Shown here in pieces: positions 7,377-64,000 of a stretch of DNA of 64,000 nt. Where the stretch lies: NCBI GenBank assembly GCA_015143295.1, contig CM026561.1:41048875-41112874 (forward strand), written 5' to 3'. Position numbers and translations under genes: made by a program. This DNA is from Tetracentron sinense. Lineage: Eukaryota; Streptophyta; Magnoliopsida; Trochodendrales; Trochodendraceae. The notes under the pieces were generated by a model. The model was given only the letters and a program-made list of their open reading frames with translations. It had not been told where the DNA came from and ran no database searches. Position 1 is the stretch's first letter. Every line of letters begins with the position of its first letter.

Positions 7377-9050
7377 TTACCGCTCGATCGGGTACATCCA
7401 TCGGTACTGTACTGGACCTGCAACCCTGGCCTCGCCTGGCAAATGGATAGCTAGATGTACCATGATGTCAAAGAATGCAGGTGGAAAAATCCTCTCAAGG
7501 TTGCAAAGTGTAACTGCATATCCGGCCTCAAGTTCTGTGAATTCTTCGACGGTGCCAACCTTAGAGCATAACCCTTTGAAGAATCTACTCAACCCAATCA
7601 ACGTTCCACTTACATTCCTTGGCAGTGATTTCTGCAAGGCCAATGGGAGTAGTTGTTGGATTAAGATATGGCAGTCATGGCTTTTCAACCCTGATATTTT
7701 GCCCTCTTTCAGGTTCAAACATCTTGAAATATTGGCCGCATATCCGTTAGGAGTTTTCACCGTTGCTAGTACGTTACAGAAAATACTTCTCTCATCGGCC
7801 GACATGGTAAAGCATGCAGCAGGCAAATATGTTTTCTCTCCTACCGCATGTGGATGAAGTGCAATTCGAATACCCATTTCCTTCAGGTCAAGACGTGATT
7901 TCCAAGTATCTTTTGTTTTTCCATCAATATTCAATAACGTCCCTGTGATACTATCGCAAATATTTTTTTCAATATGCATCACATCCAAATTGTGCCTTAT
8001 TAGTAGATGCCCCCAGTAAGATAACTTGAAGAAAATACTTACCTTCTTCCATCCAATATTCTCAACATTACTGTTGCGCAATCTTTTTCCTCTCGAGGTG
8101 TTTGCCTTATGCTTCCCAAATTGGACGTTCAGACCACGCATTTGCCCCAACAATTCGGTTCTTGTGTGTGCAACAGGAGCAGGTCTTGTTTCGGCCTGTC
8201 CATTAAATGACGCTTTTTTTTGAGGAATCTATGACCAAACCCCAAGAATCGTTTATGACCCATATAACAAAACTTATGCCCATGTTTCAAGTACTGGGAA
8301 CATACATCTCGGTTGCAATGCGGACAAGCGTATCGCCCCTTTGTACTCCATCCAAACAAGTTCGCATATGCAGGGAAGTCATTGATTGTCCACAATAACG
8401 CTGCTCTAATCTGAAAATTTTGACCATTTGACGCATCGTACGTGTCTAGTCCATCAGTCCACAGATCTAATAACTCATCTACAAGTGGTTGTAAGTATAC
8501 ATCAATGTCATTACCAGAAGCACGAGGACCAGAAATAAGTAATGACATCATCAGAAAAGGTTGCTTCATACACATCCAAGGCGGCAAATTATATGGAGTC
8601 AAAATAACAGACCAAGTACTGTGTGCGATGCTAAGGGTACTAAATGGATTGAAGCTATCGCTTGCTAACCCAAGTCTAACATTGCGAGGTTCGGCATAAA
8701 ATTCACGGTATCGTTCATCAAGATGTCGCCAGGCTTCAGAGCCACCTGGATGCCTTAGAACACCATCTTGGGTGCGACCCTCTGTATGTCAAATCATGGA
8801 ACCAACTGTCTTGTCTAACATGTAAAGTCTTTAAAGTCTAGGCTTTAAAGGAAAATGACGCAAAACTTTTGCTAGAATTCTGCCTTCCTTCTTGGATGAC
8901 GGTGTTGTATAGGAGTCCGCAATCTTCCATCGTGAAATTCCACAAACGGAACAGGCAATATCATTGGCATGTTCTTTCCAGTATGACATGCAATCGTTTG
9001 GACATGCATCAATCTTATTGTAACGAAGACCTAATTCTCCGATTATCTTT
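7377..9050 (-). pseudogene. CACTA TNP2-type transposase core and DUF4218 region, broken
   Basis: The minus strand encodes recognisable TNP2 blocks: GELGLRYNKIDACPNDCM, WKEHANDIACSVCG, LTPYNLPPWMCMK, PFLMMSLLISGPRASGNDID, VYLQPLVDELLDLWTDG and CPHCNRDV. A DUF4218-type stretch follows with LDVMHIEKNICDSI and PAFFDIMVHLAIHLPGEA. The reading frame is interrupted by stops near 8790 and 8830, and shifts at a run of eight T at 8214-8221, where the two long open frames (8602 downward and 8153 downward) meet. In living relatives this protein cuts and joins the element ends in the nucleus. This copy cannot encode an active enzyme. Confidence 0.85.
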
Positions 9051-9055
9051 TTAGT

Positions 9056-9658
9056 TCAGTAAAAGGATGCAGGCAAGGTCTCACCTTCAGGAAGTGTCTC
9101 TTTCAGTAATTCAAGTAACATTGTGAATGATTTGTTGCTCCATCCATTCAGACACTTAAAGTTATATAACCGGACGATAAAAGATAGTTTACTGAATATT
9201 TTACATCCGGGATACAAATCTTGCTCGGCATCTTCTACTAACCTATAGAATTTTGTAGCTTTAGCGTTAAGACTCTCTGTTGTTTCACTCGATCCCTCAT
9301 CGACTGTCCCTTGGTTTGCACGATTGGGTCTGAACGCTGCATTCAACATCTCTTGCATATCATCTATGACAGGGTTATCCACGTCCCTTACAACTTGGGC
9401 AGGTTGAGATCTAGGATGCGGTCTTTTCCCGTGAAAAATCCAAGTACCCGTGGCATAATGCTTATTAAATCCATCGCAAATCAAGTGTTCGTACACAATG
9501 TGTCGTATATGGTTATATCGATTACTACATTTTTTACACGGACACTTGATAGTACTGCCAGGCTGTGGTGAATGACTAAATGCAAAATCCAAGAAATTGT
9601 TCACACCCGTTTTATATATGTCACTCCATTTGTATGCAGAAACCCAACTTTTATCCAT
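9056..9658 (-). pseudogene. CACTA transposase N-terminal part with transposase-associated domain
   Basis: The likely start is the ATG at 9658-9656 (MDKSWVSAYKWSDIY). The protein then shows CPCKKCSNRYNH and YEHLICDGFNKHYATGTWIFHG, matching the zinc-binding transposase-associated domain that opens plant TNP2-type genes. The frame stops at 9056, where family members continue into the block beginning KKIIGELGLRYNKID, which is readable just downstream. That stop is one of several breaks in this copy. Confidence 0.8.
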
Positions 9659-10650
9659 GGTCACTTTATCAGCTCTCGCAATCACTAACAACAGAAGGCA
9701 ATATATACCTGTCATTAATGAATGATATAGAAATGACACCAGAATAATTAGGATAATGCATGTATGCACCATGGTTGTTCATTTCTCTTATTGGGTGGAG
9801 TGTTCCTATCTCATTCAGGAATACATAATCCCCATGAATCAGTACCGCACGTCCGCTATCAATTTTCTGAAAATTTCGGCAGCATCTCCCTATGGCTCTC
9901 CAAGTACACAATTCAGACAAGAGGCAAATGCATTGCTTGTCCAAATATGTACCCAGAGAGCAATAGGAATGACTAACGAAAAGATTCTGAAAATTGAGTG
10001 TGCTTCAGGTGACTGACACATGCTTCAGGATTATGCATTCCCAAACTGTCTACACGGACAATTCAAGAATCATTTCCAGATAAATACTCCTCTTGACATA
10101 CAGGACGGATTAGTTGTTAGCGGTAATGTAGTCCACGTAGGAATAACACATCGTAATCAACAACGAATCCGTCCATAGTGATGGTAAGAGAGGCACTTAT
10201 CCGACAATCATTCTTGAACGAGAGATCTAAGTTTCAATGCATGCATATTCACAATGACCTTGAGGGATGCAGACATCATTAACAGTTCCATGACCATAAC
10301 TGTAAAATTATAATGACCAAAAATTCGGAGTATTGCAATAATCTAAAACAACCCACATTCATCAAAATAACATTATAATCATTGATATTAGGCAATAGAC
10401 ATAATATTTAGCACACATAAAAACCAACATAGCATGTTCATATGAGAAGGAAAGGGAAAACTAAAACTAGGAGAGTTTAGCTATCTTAGGTAAGGTTGGC
10501 ATAATGAATTTAAGTTGTGTTAAGGGGGGAAAATAAAATAGAGAAGAAAGAAGAACATTGTGACAATGGATATGAGGATGTTCCAATTGTATTACTTGAA
10601 TACTATCTAGGGCTCGACTATTTGCGCAGTTCGAGCCATGAATAGCAATA

Positions 10651-12689: not shown

Positions 12690-13600
12690 ATTTTAATTGT
12701 TCATCAAGATGATGGAGCAACAACGAGATACTCAGAATCAGCTTGGTACATCTCAAAAAAATATCCAGCAACGTCTAAATTCTGTTAAGGATCAAGCTCA
12801 AAGAGCAATTCATCAAAATCTTGATGAATAAGTACTTGTTTCTCATATCCAACCTTGTTCTTGCCCCTAGACTCATCATCAAATTGTACCTCAATATAAT
12901 TCGGATTTCCTAGATATACCTTAGTCCTCTCCACCTACTCCTTTCACTGGTATAACTACTAATGAGGTACGAGCCCTCATTCAAACTAAGAGAGAAACTT
13001 ACTTGAACATGACCAGTTGTAGTAAGGCTGACCAAACTGCACGTCAAGTTCTTCGCGTGAGACGTGTAAAACTTCTCCTTTACTGCTACTATCTTTCAAT
13101 CAGTACCCACAAGAAGTCCATACCCCTAAATTCATTATTTTTTTTTATCGGGGCAACGGACCCTGTTGACCATCTTTTTCATTACCATCAGTCTATGACT
13201 TTGCATGAGCAAGATGATGCTCTCATGTGTCGTATCTTCCCTTCGAACTTGCAGTCCCGAACACTGGACTGGTGCCATCGTCTTCTTATTGGATCTCAAG
13301 AATTTGGGCATGTTAAGGTCAGCTTTCATCTCTCGATACACTGCTAATCAACTAAAAATGGCTGATGTTGATTCTCTGGTCACTTTGAGAATGAAACCTA
13401 CAGAGTCTCTTCAAGATTTTGTTCAGGAATTTCGAGACGAAGTACAATCACTAGGCATTAATTGTGATGATCGGACTATTAATGCATTTAAGAAATCATT
13501 ACCAGTAGGATCTCTTCTGTATGAATCGTTAATCAAAACTCGTCTAGAGGAGCTGGACAATTTATTGACTAAAATTGCTAGGTACACGCGTGTAGCCTAA
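12690..13600 (+). pseudogene. Gypsy-type gag fossil
   Basis: Two neighbouring frames together show the hallmarks of the retrotransposon gag family (PF03732-type) of Ty3/Gypsy elements. One has DPVDHLFHYHQSMTLHEQDD followed by the conserved SRTLDWCHRL block. The next has TLRMKPTESLQDFVQEFRDE and LDNLLTKIARY. It is broken, with about two breaks, and no protease, reverse transcriptase or integrase follows. Its LTRs are not recognised. It lies immediately beyond the CACTA terminus at 12541, so the CACTA element may have inserted in or next to it. It looks old. Confidence 0.75.
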
Positions 13601-27700: not shown

Positions 27701-30700
27701 CCTCACTCTTGATCTTTTGCAGACTCAGGGTTAGAGCTTACCAAACAGGTGCTTTATGTGTTTCCAAGAGGAAGAGACAGAAGATCATCTCTTTCTACAT
27801 TGTTCGGTAGCAAGGGAGGTGTGGAACTATTTCTTGATTCGTATGTGGATGTGGCTTGGGTTATTTCCTTCACCCTGCGGAATTTTATGGAAAGTTGGGA
27901 TTGGGAAAGAGGTGAAGGGGTTTGGGGAGTTATCCTAGGAGCGATTGCTTGGCTTCTGTGGAAAGAGAGGACTCGTAGGGTGTTTGACGATGTAGCGTCT
28001 TCGGTGCCCCATCTTTGTGAGTGTATTCGTAGGACTGTCTTGGACAGGGGTCTTTTGCTCTAGGGAGGAAATTCTGAATTTTCTGATTTAGTGTTGGCCG
28101 CCCTCATGGGAATGAGCCTATTTGTGTCGTTGTCGATAGTGGTAGAGTTTATTTACTTGTAAACTCAGTGTGTGTTTGGTATGTTTATTTTCGTGTAATT
28201 TGCTCTTGTTTTAATAAAGTGTGCTATTGATCAAAAAATAATAATAAAGAAAAACTCATGCAACTCCAAAGTGAGCTAGAAAGAAGCTCCAAATGAAATA
28301 CGCGAAAAGGCAATGCAATAACAAGTGATCTACTGTTTCCTCCTCTGCAAGACACATCACGCATCTATTTGGAAAATTCCAACCGCTATTTTGAAGATGG
28401 TCTAGTGTCAAGATTTTATCCATAGAAAAAGGATACCTTGGATGGCATGCCTGAATGTCACACCACACTACTACGGAAGCTAAGTGAGGATAGTCACTCC
28501 AAGCCCGCAAGAAGGATCTAATAGTAAATCGACCTTTGTTGTCCCTAAACCATACTCGAGTATCCCTAGAGTTGAGGTTTGGTTTTACGGACTCTAGTCG
28601 CCCCAGTAGAGCAATAAACAAACTCACTTCCCAATCTTGCAATGGTTTCCTAAAACAAGGGACCCAGACTACAGACCCACCCCTCCGCTCGAAGGAGGAT
28701 GCCACCACCCTATGGCGGTCTAAAGATAATAGATAAAGCGAGTGAAAATCCTGGTGGAGGGTATTGGATCCATACCATAAATCGGTCCAGAAATTCACCT
28801 CCTCTCCATTACCGATGACGAACCGGGTATGGCTATCAAAAGATACCTTAGACTTAAGAATCGCTCTCCACAACTCCACCCCATAAGGGGAATTCGTCCC
28901 TCATCTACTACACTCCCCACAACACGCCACTATGACCTGTCGCCAAAGACTATGACTTTCCACCCCAAATCTCCATAATCATTTACCCAACAAGGCCTGA
29001 TTCATGACCTTGAGAGGCCACAGATTTAATCCGCCTGATTCTTAGGGCGACACACCAGATTCCAACGCACTAAATGGTATTTCTTTGTATAGATCTTCTC
29101 ATTCCACAGGAAATCAAGTTGGATCTTTTCTATCCTGGCGACTACGACGAAGGGATGGGGAACAAAGAAAGTTAATAAGTTGGAATACTACTAAGAGTAC
29201 TATTGAGGAGAGTTACACACCCTCCTCTCGAGAGGAAGCCGGCTGTCCAACCCTCAAGTCTCTTTAAGCATCTCTCAATAACAGGCTCCCAAACCGAAGT
29301 GGCTTTGAACGGGGCCCCCAACGGAAGGCCAAGGAACCTGGTTGGGAGGGATCCGGATTTACACCCTAGCACGAGGTGAACGCCTCAAAGTTGGGGACCT
29401 CTCCCACGGCAAAAGATTTGGCTCTTGGCAAAATTTATACGTAGACCAGAGACTGCCTTAAAACAACTGAACTTGCATTGAATGAGGAGTAATTGGTGGA
29501 CTGAGGCGCCACAAAAGAGTAGGGTGTCATCAGCGAACTGAAGGTGGGATAGGAAGACCAGAGGAAGATCGATGCTGAAACCTTCCCATACCAAGTGGGA
29601 TGCTCGATCAATCATCCGACTAAGGGCTTTCGTGATCATAATAAACAATAGTGGAGATATGGGATCACCCTGACAAAGGCCTCGGGAACTACAAAAAAAA
29701 CCGTGGGGAGAACCGTTAATCAATACCAAGAAGGTAGAGGAGGAATAACATCTCATCCAGGGCCCCCATTTAGCTCCAACCCCCAAACGCCCAAGCATGT
29801 ATTCTAAAAAAGCCCAGCTCACATGGTCGCATGTTTTCTATATATCGATTTTACAAATAATGTCAGGAGTGTTGAGCTCAAGATTTGATTAAGAATAAAG
29901 AAAATCATAAAATAGCATTCTTATCACAAATAATTAAGCAAGAAAATCAAGAAAACAATTTTATAACAACTTGAGGCCACGTCACAAACCTACAATAATA
30001 CTGTCGACACAAAATTTCGTGGACGAAATAATGATGAACAAAATATTTATTTATTTTCAGTTTGGTACAACTCTCAAGAAATCCTCTAATTAACAATCAG
30101 AAATTTCTAAAGTAGAATATGAGGGCCGAGGCGTGATCTCAATCTGCTTTGAAGGTGTTGATGTAACTTTTCTTTTCTTCCGGGCTTCGCGCTTGATCGG
30201 CTAGAAAGTGATTCTAGAGGAGAACTGGCTTCTTTGCAACTTTGTCTTCTCTGGAATGTTTTGATTTCTTTTCTTTGAAGGCTAGAGAATGCTTCTGACT
30301 TCTCTTCTTTGGCTTCTCTTCTTTGTTTCTGAATACCCTCAAATCTCTAGCTTTGGGTCTTATTTATAGACTTTTAGAGATAAGGATCTCAAGAGTCCCA
30401 CTCCATTTAGTGGTTTAAGAGACTTCGGAGATTTTGATAAGCCTCACCCATTTAGAGATAAGAATTCCAAGAGTCCCACTCCACTTAGACTTTGATGGGC
30501 CCCACCCATCTTCTTAGGTATTGAATCCACAATCAGGTTTTTTGTGTTAACGGATCGACCCATTTATCGAGTGTGTGACCCATTTAGATTTGGACTTGGG
30601 TTTTGAGTTTATGGGCTTTCTACTTCGTGCCCAGACCCGAACCGTAAGAGGCCCATGCCTTGTCATTAGGCCCAATTTAAATGTATAGGGCTTTTTAATG

Positions 30701-47744: not shown

Positions 47745-49440
47745 AGTTTGAATTCTTACTAATCTCTTGGGGATACATAAGTTAATGTACACATTGGTGT
47801 CCAAACATTGGATAATTTTAAACCATTTGTGACCCTATATAGAATTGAATTTTGAGTGTCATCAAATACTCACTACCAATAACCCTAGTTGCAGTATATC
47901 CTTGACCACAATAAAGAGTTGAGTAGTATTAAATTACACTTATAATTTTTTTAAGAAAGTTATTACAAATATTTAGCAATGTCAACTCTAATGACAGTTA
48001 TAATGTTTTATTATTATTATTATTAGACGAGAATGGGGTAGGAGTCTTCCCATTAGGGGCGCCTTGGCCCAAACCCACCTCGTTGCCATCCCTAGACATA
48101 TCATCTTCAACTTTGGAACACAACTAGTATCGGTATGAAGTATAGACTAGTATCAACCCGATTTTTTGAGTATTGACCATACACTATAAACCATAAAAAA
48201 TGAAAAGAAAACACTATGTAAAAAAATAAAGTATGGATAATGGTTTTTGAATATGCTAAGTTGGTCATTATTTGCAGATGACTATTATGCCCTTAAGATA
48301 TTTCTTAGACCTCAACCCTAAATACCTTTATTACATTTACCAAACACAACAATTCAATGGGACTCGTGGATATCTTTTCTAACCAAGGTGAGACTTACAT
48401 AAGGCACTTTAAGATTAAGACTAATGTGAATGACTTATAGATTTAATTTTTACCATCATTCAAAAAAATAAGTTTTATTCTTACAAATCACATGGAAGGT
48501 TTTAATGTTAAAATGGGTGAATACAATGATTATGCCTAGAAAGAGCAATAATCCTCTCATTGAGTAGCAGACTATGCTCGAGGCCCTCACAAAGTCCCGT
48601 TTAACTACCTTGAAGGCTTGAACTAGTAAACAAGTATTAACCCCTCTTCTTAATTTTTTTTTCTTCTTAAAACAAGGTTAGATGCTTTAAACATTTAAAG
48701 AGAGTTCAAAAAAAAAGAGAAAAAGGATTCATGTCACAAGGGTATTATAGTTCACCAATGTCACATGGTATTGTACTTTTAAACATTTAAAAAAAAATAT
48801 AATTCAATGGAAATTGAAGAAATAAGTGGGTTAATTTGTAAATCTGTTTTATATACAGTGTATTTGCAAACTAGGATAAACCTAGCAACTAATATGTGAA
48901 AACACCTTAGATATTCATAAAAATCAAAGAGAGTAAAGATATATAAGATACACAAAAGTTAAGTAAATCAATGAAATCATACAAAAGTGAACTTGGGTTC
49001 GAGACGAGGGTGTGATGGTTGAGGCCCACCATTAGTTCTAACCTAACTAACCTACTAACCAAGGTTGCAACCTAACTGTATAATGAACTCCAAAAAAGCA
49101 TACAAAAGTGAAAAACTGAAACAACATCAAATTGATGAAACCAGATCCACACCTCCCTACATAAGTGGAGAAACCAAAATACTCAAACTTTATGCAATCT
49201 CCTTACTCGGGCCAATCTAAACTTCTCCCCTTCCCCTCCAAAAAAAAACAATAATGAGTCAATTGATTTTGCTAGCCCTATCTGCCCCTTTCTTAATGAC
49301 CCTTTTTAGAGAACTAGTTGGGTGTGAACGTGCAGTGTGTAGTTCCTCTAGTCTATTATAATATAAATAATATATTTATTTTTAATTATAAATAATAATA
49401 TAAAAATTTGAAGGACATTTAGGGTACAGAGGCTTGATGG
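47745..49440. repeat. Tandem segmental duplication, unit 2
   Basis: It begins with the same TTCTTACTAATCTCTTGGGG as unit 1 (about 45751). The inverted copy of the 45790-45970 block follows at about 47800-47985, then direct homology to unit 1 runs from about 48020 to 49380. The LTR element at 49486 inserted just beyond the end of this unit. Confidence 0.8.
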
Positions 49441-49485
49441 ATATTTTGGAAATAAAATAAACTCGAGGAGCATTTCAGGTATAGA

Positions 49486-50022
49486 TGTTAGGGTTTTTCT
49501 TATTAAATAAAAACTCATGTGGTCTGGCGCAATCCTTAGTTTTCAAAACTCGGATTGTATTGCTGTCAATAGAGAATGTTAAGGATAATGGGTCCCACTA
49601 AAGAGATGTGATCAAACAGGGACTCTTTAAGTGTTATTAAAGCTAACAGCATGGTCAGGGTTGGCGACCGTTAGATCTTTGGTGTAATCCCTCTTAACCC
49701 TTGGATCTTATGATGGGTAAGGTTCCAAGGGTATATAAAGCAAAGAGGGGGTCCCTCTTTTCTCTTACGTCAATTGGAAGCCCCATTGAATCAGACTTAA
49801 GGAGAAAAGAGAAGACTCCTCTCATCCCTCTCAAGCGCCGAGAAACCCAGTGTCACACCGTGAAGGGAATAGGGAAATTCCAGCAAAAGGTATGAGATTA
49901 TCTTTTTTAATCTGTGTCCCCTTTTGATTATGAATTCTAGAAAAAAAATTTATCGCATGGCCTAGATCCAGTATTTGAATAATCTTGTTTTGTTTTAACA
50001 TTATTATTCTTGAATCCCAACA
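49486..50022 (+). repeat. 5' LTR of the Copia-like element
   Basis: It begins TGTTAGGGTTTTTC and ends AATCCCAACA. A TATA-like GGGTATATAAAGC is at 49729-49741, placing the probable transcription start some 30 bp beyond. It is nearly identical to the 3' LTR, so an open frame of 64 codons (49701-49895) recurs in both and is not a gene. Confidence 0.95.
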
Positions 50023-50024
50023 AT

Positions 50025-50037
50025 TGGTATCAGAGCC
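50025..50037 (+). other. Primer binding site (initiator Met tRNA)
   Basis: TGGTATCAGAGCC begins two bases after the 5' LTR and is complementary to the 3' end of plant initiator methionine tRNA. It is the usual primer site of Copia and many other plant LTR elements. Confidence 0.9.
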
Positions 50038-50459
50038 CAGGGTTGACCTTGTGATTAATTTTTCTTAATAATCAAATCTAAGTGGGGTTTTATTTTCGGA
50101 TCTAATAATCAATTTTTATTGATCTAGTGATTCGGATGTAAGGAAATCAACAAATAAAATTGATTAATTGGTTACGGATTTGATAATCGATTTTATTGTT
50201 TTAGAAATAATTTTTGAGTTGAATAATTATTTTTTAAGATCCAAGTGAATCGGATTAAAAAAAAAAGAAGAGGTTTTTCAGCGTTTTCGGTTGGACGGCG
50301 ATGCTTCCGGCAGTTGGGTTTTGCTCGCCGGAGGGTGGCCGTCGGTTTGTCACTGGCGGCAGCCACACAGGTGGCCGGTAGGGTCCCCAAGAAGGAAAAA
50401 CCAGTATACGGGTTTAGGGTTTTTAAAAAAAAAAAATAAAATAAAATAAAAACTGTGCG

Positions 50460-50940
50460 GGCTAAGAAGATGAGTCACGAGGGTCAACCCGACCCGGTGA
50501 CCCGAGTCGAACCCAAAACCGAAATCTAGGTGGATCTTTGTTCGACTCGCATAACCCGATCCAAATTTGACATGGTCGACCCGAATAGTTTTGACCCGAA
50601 TAGTTTTGACCCGAACCGATTAATATGGGTATGACCCGAACCGAATGAATCCGATCCGGTCAATGTGGACCGAACCGGTTCGACCGGACTGGGACCTAAG
50701 CCGAACCGGATCGTTGACTGAACCGAACCGAGTGGAACCTGGACCGGACCGCGTAAGCGCATCAGACCGCGCGCGCGTGACGCGCAGAACGCGCGTGAGC
50801 CAATTCCGTGCGCGTGCGGCACACCACCCGCGCGTGAAGTGCATTCCCCGCGCATGAGGCGCACTTCCAGCGCGCGAGGCGCGTGACACTTGCAGGGAGT
50901 GTCCCCTGCACGTGACACGTCCAGGACGAGTGTCCGACCT
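50460..50940. repeat. CpG-dense block in the element's leader
   Basis: Repeats of GACCCGAACCG give way to dense GCGCG words (50750-50890), much richer in CpG than anything else in the window. Arg-rich frames on both strands here are by-products of base composition. It sits between the primer site and the gag region. Confidence 0.8.
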
Positions 50941-51184
50941 TCCCTGAGGTTTTTGGGTGTTCTGATTCCGTTTTTGGGGTCCATTTTTGACTTCTAAGCA
51001 CTGTAAAGAGTTGTTTTAGTGCATGAATATTATTTTCATATGGTTTTGACATTAAATAAAGGAAAAACTTGATGCTTTTACCCAAAATTAATATCAGGAA
51101 CTAAAGTTAGATCATCCTATGGGGTTTAGGTTTGATATGTAAGGCAGTGATTCGAATGGGCATAACTGAAGTAGGTTAGATTGT

Positions 51185-51491
51185 CTTGCCCAAAGGTGAC
51201 CGTCCTATAGGAGGTTATGGTCCTTCGAATTTGAGATTTTGATCTCATTTAGACTGCGAGTTTGCACTCACCTACATTGAATAACTAGTCTTGCCCAAAG
51301 GTGTCTAGGGACTTCTTGCAGACTGAGTGGGGCAGAATGATTTGTGCGTGGCGGTGAGAGAAGGATAACCTTCTTGCCCAAAGGTGTGGAAGTGTCCTAA
51401 TCAATCCAAAACATGATAGATCAGTTCTGTGCGCGACTGTTGTCGCCAATTGGGGGGTGAATTGCATGTCAAAATCTCTTGCCCAAAGGTG
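51185..51491 (+). repeat. Four spaced copies of a 14-mer in the element's leader
   Basis: CTTGCCCAAAGGTG occurs at 51185, 51290, 51373 and 51478 (spacings 105, 83 and 105 bp) in the same orientation, while the sequence between copies is not obviously repeated. Conservation of only the short word suggests a bound site or RNA element rather than a decaying tandem array. Confidence 0.85.
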
Positions 51492-51777
51492 TGATTAGAT
51501 GATGCGCCCACCTGTCCCGTAAAGTGGAAGTAAGCAATCTTAAAGTAAACCACTTTAGCTATCCGGCTTAACCCCAAGACCGGATTAGAATCATAAAGCT
51601 TAAATAAAGTCATGCAATGACAAGTATAAAGTAAATTACTATAATTTATGCAATAATTTGTTAGACATACCATAACATAGTAAAACATTGACATTTTCAG
51701 ATATAGATGGGTCTGTTGTTCAGAAACATTTGACTGGGATTGAGCCTCTGAATGGTTCAAACTATAGTTCTTAGAAG

Positions 51778-52401
51778 ATGCAGCTAGATATAGTTCTGGG
51801 TTGCCTTGATTACGACTTTGTCCTACTGGAGGAAAAGCCGGTTACTCCCACTGCTGAGTCTTCAGATTCAGATAAGTTATTGCATTCGAAGTGGGAGAAG
51901 GCCAATAGGATGGCTATGATGATCATTAGGACTTCTGTTCAAGAAGCCATCAGAGGTGGTATTCCTGCTGCTGATACTGCTAAGGTTCTTCTTGAGACTA
52001 TCAAGAAACAATTTATTGGGTATGTTAGGTCTCGTCAGTACAGTTGTTTGACTCAACTAATTTCATTGAAGTATGATGGTGCTGGAAATGTTCGGGAGCA
52101 CATCTTGAAGATATCTAAGTTAATTATCTCTCTTAGAGAGCTTGGGTTAACCATTGAGAATGACCTCATGGTGCATTTGGCTGTAGCCTCACTTCCTGAA
52201 TCATTTGATGCTTTTAAGGTTAATTATAGTGCACAGGATAGGAAGTGGGACCTGCATGAACTGATAGCTGTATGTGTTAGTGAGGAAGAGCGCTTGAAGT
52301 GTGGGAAAGCCGAGTATGCAAACTTGGCTGTGAATTCTGGTAGTAAGAAGAATTTTAAGAATATAGGGTTCAAGAAATCTAATTCACAGAATTTCTGGTA
52401 A
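51778..52401 (+). pseudogene. Copia-type gag region of the LTR element
   Basis: The 207-codon frame contains AKVLLETIKKQFIG, SRQYSCLTQLISLKYDGAG, VREHILKISKLIISLRELG and AVASLPESFDAFKVNY. This is the order of conserved blocks in the Copia-type gag (UBN2/retrotran-gag) family. A zinc knuckle of form C-x2-C-x4-H-x4-C (CFFCKEKGHMKRDC) lies nearby at 52501-52542. The protein of the family forms the particle that packages element RNA. It is treated as a fossil: the region is broken, and no pol coding sequence follows. Confidence 0.85.
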
Positions 52402-53917
52402 GGACAAAATTCAGGACAGAGTTCAGGTCATAATTTAGGACAGAGTTCAGGATATCAATTTCAGGGAAATGATAATACTGAGGAACTAGAGGAGATTGAG
52501 TGTTTCTTCTGCAAGGAGAAAGGCCACATGAAAAGAGATTGTTTCAAATATAAGGATTGGTGCAAGAAGAACAAAGGAGTTCATTCATCGGCGAAGCGCC
52601 AAGGCTGATGAGCTGCTGGTTTTTGAAGAACTCTACACCAACATTATTAGAGGCTGTTGGAACTTGCTGATTAGTATTAGACTTTGTTTATGGTTTTTAC
52701 TATTAGATGTTATTTTCATTGTGCCGTTGTTTAGGCGAGATATTATTGGATTTGATACAGTTTAATTTTATCCTTGAGGGGAGTACACTCTCAATCAGAC
52801 ATATTTTTTAGACAGTTGGTAGTAATATATTAGTAGATGATCTTTATTAGCTAAACTTGGACTCGTATTTTATATCATTCTTGTTGTATGTTTGTTAACA
52901 TCAGACATATGTTAAGGTCAGTGGGAGCAGGTTTGTAAGTTATATTTTGGATATCAAGATTACCAGAGATCATATTTCTAGACATTTGGAGTTATCTCAT
53001 AGGATTTCAGTTTGGTTTACAAGAAATATATCGAACTAGAAATTTAAAAGTTATTCAGACTCTGATTTTGCTTGATTTCAAGATAGTTTGAAATCCTCAT
53101 CAGATTCTGTGTTGTTGCATGTTTGGATTGTGAACCCATTAAGTAAAGAACTCTCCACCAGAAATTTTTTAAAGAACTTGTCACTATTATGGAACCTTTT
53201 AGAATCGTTTGATTCTTTTATTTAGTGGGAGTATTGTTCATTGTTTTATATTCCAGACATTTATATGATATACATGTCATTGTTTTACACTCTCAGATAT
53301 TGATATGTTATAGTTATGCAAATTAAATATTGATGCATCATTTGATCATAGTCATATAATTGAACAGCACGTGCAAAAGGTAAAGACATCAAGTGATGGA
53401 CTTCACATGACGGATGTCATTGATGTCAGGTTTGCCCGAGAGCCTCGCACAAAGCTTTCAAGTTGCTTGGGCTGAACATAGTTGGACACCATGTTTGAGG
53501 TCTTCATTCTGGATACAAGGTGATGGACTTCACATGGCGGTTGCCGTAAAGTATCGGAATGACATGCATATGCTTAAATGCATGTAGCGTGGATAATTTT
53601 TGGACGTATACATTTTGATCACATAAGGTTGTGTATAGTCCATATCACACTATACATTGCCACCATAAAGAACCGCTTTGAAACATTAGTATTACTAGCT
53701 GTTTGACCATGGAGTGGCTTGTATCATAGTAAATGAACACTAGTAGATGCTAAATGCTTCCATGATCACCGTTAGTGGTGCTTTTGAATCAAAGTGACAG
53801 TTAAAGAACACTTAATTCTCAACAACAATGTTTTTCAAAATCAAAAGAGTGGCCACTCACGTTTTTAAAGTTGTTCAATCCGAAAAGTCATTTTATTTTA
53901 TTTAAGGATTGCTTGGA

Positions 53918-53930
53918 CCAAGTGGGAGAT
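53918..53930 (+). other. Polypurine tract
   Basis: CCAAGTGGGAGAT immediately precedes the 3' LTR (start at 53931), the position and form of the plus-strand primer in Copia elements. Confidence 0.8.
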
Positions 53931-54466
53931 TGTTAGGGTTTTTCTTATTAAATAAAAACTCATGTGGTCTGGCGCAATCCTTAGTTTTCAAAACTCGGAT
54001 TGTATTGCTGTCAATAGAGAATGTTAAGGATAATGGGTCCCACTAAAGAGATGTGATCAAACAGGGACTCTTTAAGTGTTATTAAAGCTAACAGCATGGT
54101 CAGGGTTGGCGACCGTTAGATCTTTGGTGTGATCCCTCTTAACCCTTGGATCTTATGATGGGTAAGGTTCCAAGGGTATATAAAGCAAAGAGGGGGTCCC
54201 TCTTTTCTCTTACGTCAATTGGAAGCCCCATTGAATCAGACCTAAGGAGAAAAGAGAAGACTCCTCTCATCCCTCTCAAGCGCCGAGAAACCCAGTGTCA
54301 CACCGTGAAGGGAATAGGGAAATTCCAGCGAAAGGTATGAGATTATCTTTTTTAATCTATGTCCCCTTTTGATTATGAATTCTAGAAAAAAAATTATCGC
54401 ATGGTCTGGATCCAGTATTTGAATAATCTTGTTTTGTTTTAACATTATTATTCTTGAATCCCAACA
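53931..54466 (+). repeat. 3' LTR of the Copia-like element
   Basis: It is the same as the 5' LTR except for about six substitutions, all transitions, and one 1-base length difference. It is followed by the right copy of the ATAGA target duplication. Confidence 0.95.
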
Positions 54467-54471
54467 ATAGA

Positions 54472-55040
54472 AAGTTGACTTGAGAGACATTTTGAGAGAA
54501 AAAAAAACTTGAGAGATATTTTGGATATAGCAAAAAATTTGAAAGGTATTTTTGGTATACAAATTTTGGGAGCATTTTAGAAATAAAAATAATAATATAG
54601 GGGTATTGTAAAAAAATAAAAACTTGAGGGAAATGTTGGGGGAATAAAAGACTTAGGGGCATTTTAAGTATAAAATTTTGGCTATACTTAAATAGTCCTC
54701 TTTTATAAGAGTAGAGGGCTCACTTAAATAGTCATTAAATCCCTTAAGTATCCCCAAAAGGGGTTTTTGGGCGATGAGGGCTATCAAGGTCTGTTTTGAT
54801 TGGATTGACAAGAAACTTATCGTAGAAGTCTTTGTCTAATTTTCCGAAAAAATCAAAAAGGAGTCGAGTATGATTGAGAGCGAGTGGGGCTAGCACTCCC
54901 ATTCCAACTATCTGAGTCAGCTAACACAACAAAATTCTGTTGTTAGCTATTTTTATATCTCCCCCACAATAAAAACAAATAATAATAATAATAATAAAAT
55001 TCTATACCATTTTTCTATTATTCCAAACATTGGACGGGTA
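54472..55040. other. AT-rich spacer
   Basis: Loose repeats of the phrase ACTTGAGAGATATTTTGGA / GAGGGGCATTTTAG continue across the LTR-element insertion from 49400-49480. The insertion therefore split one repetitive tract. No gene is seen. Confidence 0.5.
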
Positions 55041-61400: not shown

Positions 61401-62838
61401 TTCCTAGTATACAATCTACAGTACTGAAAGCTCTTGACCCACCCTTTCACTACAAATCCCATTATTCTAAACACAAGCTTCACATGTGGAGGTGACTTCT
61501 CTATGCCTAACAACTACCAAAAAGGAATCCAACATATGGGAGAAAATGGGTGGAGTTGAACCCGAATACCCGGCATATCTACTCTATATGATCGGATCAG
61601 GTCCATTTTTTCAGGGAGATGTTAACAATAGGTTCACATCAGCCAACCCATTTTGGGCGGATTCAGATCCCTTTTTACAGCCGAAAACTGGTTCCAGACC
61701 TAACCCAGTGACAATACTACATAAGGGATAAAGGTGCCAAAGCAGGGAAATCTCTGGAATTTCAACTTGAATGAAGAAAAGGGGATTGACAATAAGTAAT
61801 TAAATTAAAGAAAGAGAATAAAGCAGAACAAAAGCATCTATGAACGAAGGTCACAGACCCTTAAGCTTTTGGTTTTGCTTTTACTTTACTTTGAACCCCT
61901 ACTCTGCTTTAGGTCTTTAATTTCTTTTCTTTTTTTCTCTTTTGCTTTCTCTCCCTCACACTGGCTTTGCTGACCAAAGAAGATAGGGATGTCCCCGAAA
62001 CTCAAGGGCCAACCCAAGTAATGCATGCAGTTCTAATTAATTGACCAGAATACCCTTGCTTCAATTTTCTAAACAAATTAATAATCTACATCATTGTTAG
62101 AAAGAAAGAAGGGTAATGTGGGCATACTTGTATGTTAATCTAAGCAGTTTTTGTTCAACAAAAATATGGAGCCTCAAGGAATTTAGGTAAGCAAACATGC
62201 ACCATGTTTTTTTGAGATTTTGCTATCCCCACTCTCCTATTGCATTTTTTCCTTTTCGGGGAAAGAAGACAAGGATTTTCTAGTGGTCCTCATAACTGTT
62301 GACATAAAATCTTTGTCTTCTTACCTTTAAAATGGGAGAGTGCAACAGGGGGAGAGTGGGGCTAGCACTCCCCTTTTCTTTCTGGTACACAGAAAACATG
62401 CACTATAATACTATATCACCCAGTTGTAGAGCTGAAGACTATCTTTGTCAGCTCAGGTGGGGCTTCAATATCTTTAACTATAATGTGGAGTTTGGGAACT
62501 AACCCATTTGTTTTCCATATATCTGCAGTCGAAGTGATCAGATTCGGCTCGCTTTAACGCTTCTAAACAAAGTAGGCATTTTCCTCCATCTCCCTCCAGG
62601 CCTCCTTTGGGCACCTTCGGCATTTGCAGACAGCTTCTCCATCTAAACAGTCTTTCCTTTTATCATCTAAACAAAGCCTGCCATATAAGAGAGAAGAAAC
62701 AGACCATGAAACCTTAACTGTAACTTCGATTTTCTTTTGATTCCCTATTAAGGACAGGTCCACCCTTGATTCGGAATCGAGGCTTCGGGATGCTTCGTTG
62801 CAGCTTCTTGCAGCAAGCTAAGTAACAGAAAAGGGAGT
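61401..62838 (+). promoter_or_regulatory. Upstream region of the MCTP gene
   Basis: A TATA-like CCATATAAGA lies at 62681-62690, about 150 bp before the ATG, suitable for a start site near 62715. The region further up is AT-rich. An open frame at 61486-61731 shows no domain. No transposon ends are recognised between the SINE and the gene. Confidence 0.4.
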
Positions 62839-64000
62839 ATGAAGCTGGTGGTGGAGGTGGTAGATGCCCAAAATCTTATGCCCAAAGACGGCGAAGGATC
62901 ATCCAGCCCATTTGCAGAAGTTGACTTCGAGAACCAGAGAAGTAGAACCCACACTGTCCACAAAAACCTCAACCCTGTCTGGAACCAGAAGCTCTTCTTC
63001 AACCTCGACAACCCCAAGAGCCTCCATCACCACAACATTGAGGTCTGTGTCTACAACGAGAGGAAGTCGTTTCCTGGTCGCAACTTTCTTGGAAAGGTAA
63101 GAATTCATGGCTCAAACATTGTTCATAAAGGAGAAGAAGCTTATCAAGAGTTTCCCTTAGAAAAGAAGTTGTTTTTCTCGTCCATTAAAGGGGAGATTGG
63201 CTTGAAAATTTATATCTCGTCCGAATCTGAACCAAAATCTCCTCCATCATGTCCACCACCTCTTCCTGTTTCTGATAAAACTAACGTTACTACTACAGAT
63301 AAAATAGCTGTTTCTGATACTGAACCAGTCGCTGCAATCAGTAACACCTCAGTTACCCCTGAAACTATTGTCTCCAATACTTCTGCTGCAGCTACTACAG
63401 GGAAGACCCATACTTCTACTACAACATTTTCTGCAATCGGAGCTTCTAGCACGCCTGCTGCAGTAGCTGATTCTACTGGCGGTGCTTCTCCTGCTAAAGA
63501 GCTAAAGGAGGAGATCAAGGAACCCGTAGAAGTAAAAATCCAGACTACCCAACACATATACAAACATCAAGTATCACAGCAACCAGGGATATCGGTGGAG
63601 AGACAGCCAGAAGGCGTGCCATTAACCATGCATCAGATCAACCCACAAGCCCATCCGAACAACAGAGAGGACTACAAATTAAAGGACACAAGCCCCCGGC
63701 TTGGAGAGCGATGGCCACATGGAGGAGTACGTGGTGGAGGAGGAGGGTGGATGGGTGGCGACAAATTAACCAGCACATACGACCTTGTCGAACAGATGTA
63801 CTATCTGTATGTTCGGGTTGTGAAAGCCAAAGACCTCTCTACCAACGCCCTCAGCGGAAGCTGTGACCCATACGCTGAGGTGAAACTCGGGAACTACAAA
63901 GGGACAACAAGGCACTTCGAGAAGAAAACAAACCCCGAGTGGAACCAGGTATTTGCGTTCTCCAAAGACAGGATTCAGTCGTCAGCACTGGAGGTTTTCG
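62839..64000 (+). CDS. MCTP-type protein (multiple C2 domains and transmembrane region), N-terminal part
   Basis: The ATG at 62839 opens 387 uninterrupted codons to the window edge with no intron, consistent with the intronless plant MCTP genes. Residues 1 to about 130 form a C2A domain (KLVVEVVDAQNLMPKDGEGS, VHKNLNPVWNQKLFFN, FLGKVRIHGSN, GEIGLKIYISSE). A Thr/Ser/Ala/Pro-rich linker spans about 135-300. The second C2 begins near residue 314 with YDLVEQMYYLYVRVVKAKDL, an MCTP hallmark, followed by SCDPYAEVKLGNYKGTTRHF. Further C2 domains and the C-terminal membrane part lie outside. MCTPs such as QUIRKY and FTIP1 tether the endoplasmic reticulum to the plasma membrane, often at plasmodesmata. 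Having the N-terminal C2A puts this with the four-C2 members; the exact orthologue is undetermined. Confidence 0.93.
   Translation, partial: MKLVVEVVDAQNLMPKDGEGSSSPFAEVDFENQRSRTHTVHKNLNPVWNQKLFFNLDNPKSLHHHNIEVCVYNERKSFPGRNFLGKVRIHGSNIVHKGEEAYQEFPLEKKLFFSSIKGEIGLKIYISSESEPKSPPSCPPPLPVSDKTNVTTTDKIAVSDTEPVAAISNTSVTPETIVSNTSAAATTGKTHTSTTTFSAIGASSTPAAVADSTGGASPAKELKEEIKEPVEVKIQTTQHIYKHQVSQQPGISVERQPEGVPLTMHQINPQAHPNNREDYKLKDTSPRLGERWPHGGVRGGGGGWMGGDKLTSTYDLVEQMYYLYVRVVKAKDLSTNALSGSCDPYAEVKLGNYKGTTRHFEKKTNPEWNQVFAFSKDRIQSSALEVF

Follow-up and report, generated by a model that had tools for sequence, protein, structure and literature searches.

How does a long terminal repeat (LTR) retrotransposon that encodes no enzymes of its own keep spreading? 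The question is raised by a 4,981-bp element, with exact coordinates 49486-54466, in a 64,000-nucleotide stretch of the Tetracentron sinense genome (assembly GCA_015143295.1, contig CM026561.1, positions 41,048,875 to 41,112,874 of the forward strand), hereafter the window. An earlier note on this DNA had described a young insertion with a gag-like region but no pol and had favoured a non-autonomous lineage over a decayed autonomous copy. Our analysis supports that interpretation. The element belongs to a large, recently active pol-less Copia family and is not a one-off deletion, and we put the probability at about 0.82 that this family moves by borrowed enzymes, most likely those of a related autonomous element at C1:64371122-64378586 (host contigs are denoted C1, C2 and so on), hereafter the sister.

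Size, layout and recent activity of the pol-less family

The window element has perfect 5-bp target-site duplications, a primer-binding site (TGGTATCAGAGC), which we take to be of the initiator methionine tRNA type, a polypurine tract (AAGTGGGAGAT) and LTRs that differ by six transitions in 536 aligned sites plus one gap (Kimura two-parameter distance 0.011), all in agreement with the earlier description. At a grass-like substitution rate of 1.3e-8, the insertion is about 0.4 million years old, or older if the host evolves slowly. The interior between the LTRs spans 3908 bp and includes a gag of Copia type (PF14223, E=4.1e-19; zf-CCHC, E=1.1e-5); matches of the gag sequence to "Copia VLP protein" chains in the PDB were marginal (E=0.02 and 0.04). 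Thus, the assignment to Copia holds, but it had been missed that gag is dead in this copy: TAG at 51772 and TAA at 52399 interrupt it, and ATA replaces the first ATG (51703) of most other family copies. No intact protease, integrase, reverse transcriptase (RT) or RNase H domain was seen in the element, only debris. An Rfam search of 49400-54600 gave no match up to E=1, and an IMG/VR search with gag gave no relative.

The host genome (1.16 Gb, 1479 contigs) contains 345 junctions of polypurine tract and LTR start (38 bases, at most three mismatches), while a reversed control contains none. The LTR start by itself occurs 754 times (once in the control), so solo LTRs look few, an estimate that truncated copies blur. 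The best 40 of 1123 LTR candidates scored were all full length and 96-100% identical, and the best 150 of 4706 gag candidates scored were 93-100% identical. Thirty gag loci (L009-L038, one being the window copy), picked as the best gag matches, were fetched and aligned to the window element. All 29 others are colinear with it, from the leader through gag towards the polypurine tract, and have no pol; small pieces are absent from several, and at 52898 seven are longer by ~85 bases or more. This extra segment, located between pol-debris blocks and also seen at L147:1724-1807, has at most faint pol similarity and is possibly an earlier deletion state.

Because these loci had been the best gag matches, sampling by junction was added. 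Among the 100 junctions listed, all exact and on C1-C10, 53 coincided with a gag or 3′ hit that was also listed, which left 47 without one; when 40 of these 47 were read 300 bp upstream, every one showed the family 3′ end. Twenty of the 24 listed C1 junctions were also read at the gag position, and gag lay at or near the expected distance in 19. The twentieth copy holds a 2.4-kb insertion, with no open reading frame (ORF) over 55 aa in the fetched part and with family sequence before it. Multiple copies with a common pol-less layout, which the earlier note had taken as the mark of a lineage, are therefore what the genome holds. Had the window copy been a one-off deletion, its relatives should have pol between gag and the 3′ LTR, and none of those read has any there. 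Among the 100 LTR starts listed (C1 and C2), 41 pairs were found, 37 spaced 4.1-4.6 kb and four longer; two of the longer pairs hold insertions, which gave no match to a Tnt1-like protease-integrase piece (RT was not tested there). The other two longer pairs are C2:30651585-30659369 (7758 bp) and C1:19473004-19478839 (minus strand; 5809 bp), and no listed polypurine-tract junction or leader motif falls in the latter.

Nine LTR pairs outside the window's branch, drawn from the LTR matches closest to the window and not a random age sample, comprise six without substitution (one with a one-base gap) and others with 1, 2 and 5. Eight of them have perfect 5-bp duplications (two inside TA repeats and uninformative), and the ninth matches at 4/5. 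The six pairs without substitution indicate recent family activity, and recent insertions that lack pol suggest movement by proteins supplied in trans.

The family belongs to the known TR-GAG kind, terminal-repeat elements with only gag, for which PMC10025401 cites Chaparro et al. 2015. It combines LTRs with TG...CA ends and target-site duplications, a primer site and polypurine tract, a single gag ORF and no protease, integrase, RT or RNase H domain; the window copy itself, with its two stops, lacks the single ORF. The Copia gag and, in the sister, the order of integrase before RT (rve falls in the first piece and RVT_2 in the second) place it in the Copia superfamily. Large retrotransposon derivatives (LARDs) and terminal-repeat retrotransposons in miniature (TRIMs) are defined by having no coding capacity, whereas this family has a selected gag frame; nor is it BARE2-like, with pol retained and gag disrupted, as its pol is debris.

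Descent from an autonomous element and selection on gag

The string TCTTGCCCAAAGGTG, found in the leader of the family, occurs 1426 times in the genome and not once in a reversed control. Nine stretches were read around atypical places among the 100 listed, which run along C1 up to 64.37 of 64.56 Mb. Seven were family copies, one (L149, C1:48.88) was a distantly related gag-pol element that has a single exact copy of the motif, and in one (L151, C1:64372600) a gag 84% identical in protein to that of the family runs on into pol. The latter is the sister, a 7.5-kb element with 548-bp LTRs that show 4 differences, a GTGGC target-site duplication and an open frame of 1391 aa with PF14223, Pol_BBD, gag_pre-integrs, rve and RVT_2. 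Its primer site is the same as that of the family, its polypurine context (GCTTGGGCCAAGTGGGAGAT) is near-identical to the family's (GCTTGGACCAAGTGGGAGAT), and it too has the leader motif in four copies, spaced 104/83/105 compared with 105/83/105 in the family. Sister junctions number 69, and the pol-less family has about five times as many. Among the best 112 of 26145 candidates scored in an RT search, 24 have 1387-1391-aa frames without stops. In a second sister copy (C2:9.99) the LTRs are identical over the 536 sites compared and the duplication is ATCAG; for a third, on C11, the piece read did not show where the 5′ LTR starts. On C11, a sister copy (RT at 2941790, 1391-aa frame, 3′ junction at 2943918) and a gag-dead family copy (2945231-2950239) are separated by less than 1 kb (region C11:2936990-2950239).

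By gag sequence, the sister is the closest autonomous relative found, as the next sampled families reach 58% identity (C15, C13), followed by 35% (C1:48.88) and ~30% (C1202, C9, C3); in the C6 and C23 families gag was not in the piece read. Ten older, decayed sister copies were sampled as closer ancestors and none was clearly closer (gag was unread in one, and the stretch read from two others contained none). The gags of six families that we take to be Tnt1-like (L039-L044) are 20-22% identical, with no convincing LTR match, and of twenty further PF14223 gags 6 gave no match and the other 14 were 18-24% identical.

Comparison with the sister indicates where pol was lost. Positions 52402-52574 correspond to gag, after which aa 298-334 are missing, among them a DSG presumed to be the active site of the protease (aa 320-401 are Pol_BBD in Pfam). 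There follow aa 335-442 out of frame and, beyond a gap in place of integrase and the YVDD-bearing core of RT, the end portions of RT, RNase H and gag-pol (Table 1), while 53223-53930 corresponds to the 3′ untranslated region (UTR). These matches are short (E-values 1e-22 to 0.002) but gain weight because the debris is colinear with the sister. The absence of pol noted earlier thus applies to intact domains and not to the sequence, where scraps at 52575-53222 are recognised only against the autonomous relative. Likewise, the call of a non-autonomous lineage is borne out by many young copies with a common pol-less layout, but descent from an autonomous element by an old deletion had escaped notice. 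On this alignment, the family arose from an autonomous element by internal deletions, and the frame jump at the first deletion junction accounts for the way the family Gag ends, in a short tail and a stop.

Gag synonymous sites differ at 56-61% between family and sister (synonymous divergence, dS, 1.05-1.24; ratio of nonsynonymous to synonymous divergence 0.063-0.088; seven copies). Where the debris aligns best, identity is 68% over 287 bp, compared with 80% for the leader end plus gag and ~42% for synonymous sites. As a rough estimate from an alignment that favours the best pieces, this suggests that the loss of pol lies far back in time but came well after family and sister had split. Amino-acid changes on the pol-less and sister branches numbered 8 versus 3 with either outgroup, a very small sample.

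The gag reading frame nevertheless bears the mark of selection. Among 19 copies chosen by junction, gag is fully open in 7 (302-314 aa), open over the part read in 1, truncated immediately after the zinc knuckle in 1 (304 aa) and disrupted in 10. The ratio of nonsynonymous to synonymous polymorphism (pN/pS) in these copies is 0.245; a first value of 0.12, from 26 copies chosen by gag similarity, was biased low and was replaced. Changes common to at least two copies comprise 26 nonsynonymous and 39 synonymous (plus one stop), a nonsynonymous share far below the 0.715 expected under neutrality (p=1.3e-7), while private changes comprise 58 and 36, with 8 stops, and are nearer neutral (p=0.04); the two classes differ (p=0.0096). 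Shared changes being constrained and private ones nearer neutral, gag was conserved during the spread of the family and decays after insertion. Judged by these counts, gag was under purifying selection in the family after pol loss.

One branch departs from this pattern. The TAG at 51772 is common to the window copy, C6:35.19, C11:2.95 and C11:7.05 (4/30 gag loci; 0/19 junction-chosen copies), and these sit at four different targets (ATAGA for the window copy; GGGAT, GCCAC and GAAAC for the others). A shared stop at different targets argues that this branch multiplied after its own gag had died. The LTRs of the gag-dead relatives show two (C11:7.05), seven (C11:2.95) and eight (C6:35.19) differences. 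A close solo LTR lies at C2:21305489 with the duplication ATTCT. Another copy (L104, C1:55.3) has identical LTRs and a one-base gag deletion that could be an assembly error.

A conserved leader motif as candidate cis signal

Upstream of gag, a non-coding leader block (Table 1) is 88% identical between family and sister. By comparison, the upstream leader is identical at 38-75% of columns per 100 bp (18% in one bin, mostly gap), the LTR at 64% and synonymous sites at ~42%; the 3′ UTR is also conserved. The block harbors the four motif copies. Variants of the motif (at most three mismatches in 13) were found in 7 of 15 leader pieces (L194, C15; L195, C13; L198, C21; L199, C16; L205, C17, a single weak site; L206, C9; L208, C6), where 0.015-0.12 are expected per shuffle. 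The other eight pieces (L196, L197, L200-L204, L207) showed none, and for L196 the motif stands in the neighbouring piece L149. Thus, conservation of the leader motif is firmly supported. Farther upstream, at 50500-50900, the leader is GC-rich with GACCCGAA/CCGAACCG and GCGCG runs, while the rest is AT-rich; this part is poorly conserved in the sister.

The motif can be drawn as a stem-loop with a GCC-CAAA-GGU head and arms that vary between copies while pairing. When arms were swapped among 16 instances from six families (the sister's four motif copies were left out as near-duplicates), the folding energy rose from -10.86 to -6.98 kcal/mol, and the observed value was reached in 0/20000 permutations overall and 123/20000 within families. 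Stability was also high relative to 62 control windows (mean z -1.54 versus -0.23, sd 1.22). Against this stand weak results on other measures: a fixed-register count gave 70.3% of cells paired versus 66.9% when shuffled (80/500) with a covariation score at 95/500, RNAalifold kept only 3 (inner) pairs, and three of the family's four hairpins are no more stable than arm shuffles (z 0.94, 0.42, -2.17, -0.15). The same count gave 19 cells with both sides changed versus 11.7 (4/500), and slid registers were 30-48% paired. Based on the arm-swap test and the mean z relative to control windows, a hairpin at the motif is likely for the clade as a whole.

These features make the block with its fourfold motif a candidate packaging signal. 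More tentatively, and at somewhat less than even odds, the motif may be a clade-wide RNA recognition code, in which tandem small stem-loops would be read by plant Copia Gag for packaging and would be kept by the pol-less family as a ticket into its relatives' particles, even when its own gag is dead. A competing possibility, to which we also give a little under half, is that the block is a translation, splicing or promoter element or has been homogenised by template switching. Retroelements are known to switch templates between RNAs packaged together, the block sits directly upstream of gag, and hairpin support inside the family alone is weak; such explanations fit less readily with the recurrence of the motif in the leaders of families with gag identities as low as 35-58% and with the stronger pairing of original over exchanged arms. 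In listings and the opening lines of abstracts, full-text searches on the motif string, which brought up one unrelated paper, on packaging and leader stem-loops of plant Copia elements, and on TR-GAG and non-autonomous elements gave no report of the motif.

Table 1 Annotated features of the pol-less element (window coordinates).
Feature	Position	Strand	Remark
Target-site duplication ATAGA, left	49481..49485	.	copy at 54467-54471
5′ LTR, TGTTAGGG...CCCAACA	49486..50022	+	537 bp
Primer-binding site TGGTATCAGAGC	50025..50036	+	directly after 5′ LTR; same or nearly same in other family copies, same in autonomous relative
Conserved leader block	51123..51522	+	353/399 aligned bases identical to autonomous relative
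Leader motif copy 1, TCTTGCCCAAAGGTG	51184..51198	+	
Leader motif copy 2	51289..51303	+	
Leader motif copy 3	51372..51386	+	
Leader motif copy 4	51477..51491	+	
gag region	51703..52605	+	301 codons from first ATG in intact copies
CCHC zinc knuckle	52501..52542	+	
Pol debris, out-of-frame Pol_BBD-region remnant	52575..52886	+	downstream of lost DSG
Pol debris, end of RT	52908..53003	+	YVDD stretch missing
Pol debris, RNase H part	53003..53117	+	domain name presumed from position
Pol debris, C-terminal end of gag-pol	53121..53222	+	
3′ UTR	53223..53919	+	72-85% identical per 100 bp to autonomous relative
Polypurine tract AAGTGGGAGAT	53920..53930	+	directly before 3′ LTR
3′ LTR	53931..54466	+	536 bp
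Target-site duplication ATAGA, right	54467..54471	.	

Elsewhere in the window, long ORFs resemble by eye a CACTA-type transposase (7380-9778, minus strand), a LINE reverse transcriptase (28259-29837, minus) and a Gypsy gag (13199-13597, plus), and a 410-codon frame open to the window end (62770-63999, plus) resembles by eye the start of a C2-domain (MCTP-type) host gene.

Proposed borrowing of enzymes and known systems

How might such a family move? We propose that internal deletions removed the DSG, integrase and most of RT-RNase H from an autonomous Copia ancestor, and that the first deletion junction shifted the frame, ending gag shortly after the zinc knuckle and leaving a stand-alone Gag of ~301 aa. 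The family RNA would retain what is needed in cis, namely LTRs, primer site, leader with four motifs, 3′ UTR and polypurine tract, and many source copies would retain a working Gag. Protease, integrase and RT-RNase H would be supplied in trans by the Gag-Pol of a related autonomous family via mixed Gag/Gag-Pol particles. The window copy would stem from a side branch whose gag was dead before the last transposition rounds, such that Gag of other family copies would have been used as well. We infer the mixed particles, the packaging role of the motif and the identity of the partner.

Several observations weigh against this model, which is drawn from genome sequence. Family and sister are old relatives that separated long ago (gag dS about 1.1). 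The autonomous partner anticipated by the earlier note was found with full pol but not with the same LTR: the sister LTR runs TGTAAGAG...TCTTACA and the family LTR TGTTAGGG...CCCAACA, with only 321/501 aligned sites (64%) identical. Because the ends differ, the sister integrase may not accept family LTRs, and the LTR start of the C15 family (TGTTGGGTTTTT) is closer to the family's, yet its gag is only 58% identical. As to the gag-dead branch, the TAA at 52399 is found in the window copy, C6:35.19 and C11:2.95 but also in L024, outside the branch and without the TAG, so it is not a clean branch marker and may be recurrent or older. Finally, a pol-bearing copy with the family LTR is conceivable, since the reading covered part of the 345 copies and two of the four longer LTR pairs.

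Mobilisation by another autonomous family, for example of the C15:30745681 type or an unsampled one with better-matching LTR ends, is unlikely but carries real weight. The LTR starts of the C15 type (TGTTGGGTTTTT), the family (TGTTAGGGTTTTT) and the sister (TGTAAGAGTTTTA) favour it, as does the 1181-aa frame without stops in the C15 type, and the wheat trio Wilma, Sabrina and WHAM is described as having common LTR termini (PMC9744471). The same source states that the mobilising partner of non-autonomous LTR elements is difficult to determine without experimental data. Against the C15 type stand its lower gag identity relative to the sister's 84% and a 3′ end that matches in short pieces only. 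We retain the sister as the most likely donor.

It is improbable that the family is a helper and not a parasite, with a Gag serving autonomous relatives or the host instead of its own copy. Its conserved gag would fit this role, and Gag-encoding non-autonomous elements of wheat have been proposed to be part of a cooperative complex (PMC9744471). However, the simplest account of the selection seen between copies once pol was gone is a Gag that prefers to package its own coding RNA, and the helper role is, in our assessment, weakened by the gag-dead branch, which indicates that use in trans also works. The purifying selection on gag after pol loss points to a Gag that acts by preference on behalf of its own RNA. 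The idea of a one-off internal deletion or decayed autonomous copy, which could draw on the broken gag of the window copy and on pol debris (52575-53222) that points to an autonomous ancestor, is ruled out by the copy survey (345 junctions; 29/29 and 19/20 with the layout), in which many young copies have the same deletion layout at separate target sites.

The borrowed-enzyme reading has partial parallels in known systems. Like this family, TR-GAG elements have LTRs, target-site duplications, primer site, polypurine tract and gag, no pol domain and multiple copies, and PlantLTRdb gives them a median length of 4,837 bp (PMC10025401), compared with 4,981 bp here. In Arabidopsis, the TR-GAG element AT5TE33540 (ATCOPIA63) likewise belongs to a Copia family with a related, potentially autonomous element, AT3TE48480, and transposition was seen in ddm1; its Gag has 562 aa versus ~301 aa here, and the accessible sections describe no family-scale expansion (PMC8704663). 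The tomato element TARE1 (354 copies) is, like this family, a massively amplified defective Copia, but its mutation lies in the LTR terminus and is not pol loss (PMC3701649). Wheat RLG_Sabrina and RLG_WHAM are old Gag-encoding non-autonomous families beside the autonomous RLG_Wilma, as here; these are Gypsy elements whose homology is left almost only in LTR motifs, termini and primer site (PMC9744471), whereas here homology is extensive and the LTR termini differ.

A mirror image of the model is BARE2 of barley, whose RNA is packaged into particles of its relative BARE1 and for which conserved dimerisation and packaging signals are mentioned (PMC3735527); a parasite RNA in a relative's particles is what we propose here from sequence. 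BARE2 lost Gag and kept the rest, while the present family lost pol and kept gag, and the window's branch lost both. With an active pol-less family, a gag-dead sub-branch, an open-frame sister and a candidate cis signal in one genome, what a parasite must keep becomes testable. What sets the case apart from TR-GAG elements generally is that one family is documented here together with its pol debris, the selection on its gag, its gag-dead sub-branch and its autonomous sister; the family itself, that sister, the loss in two tiers and the leader motif are new.

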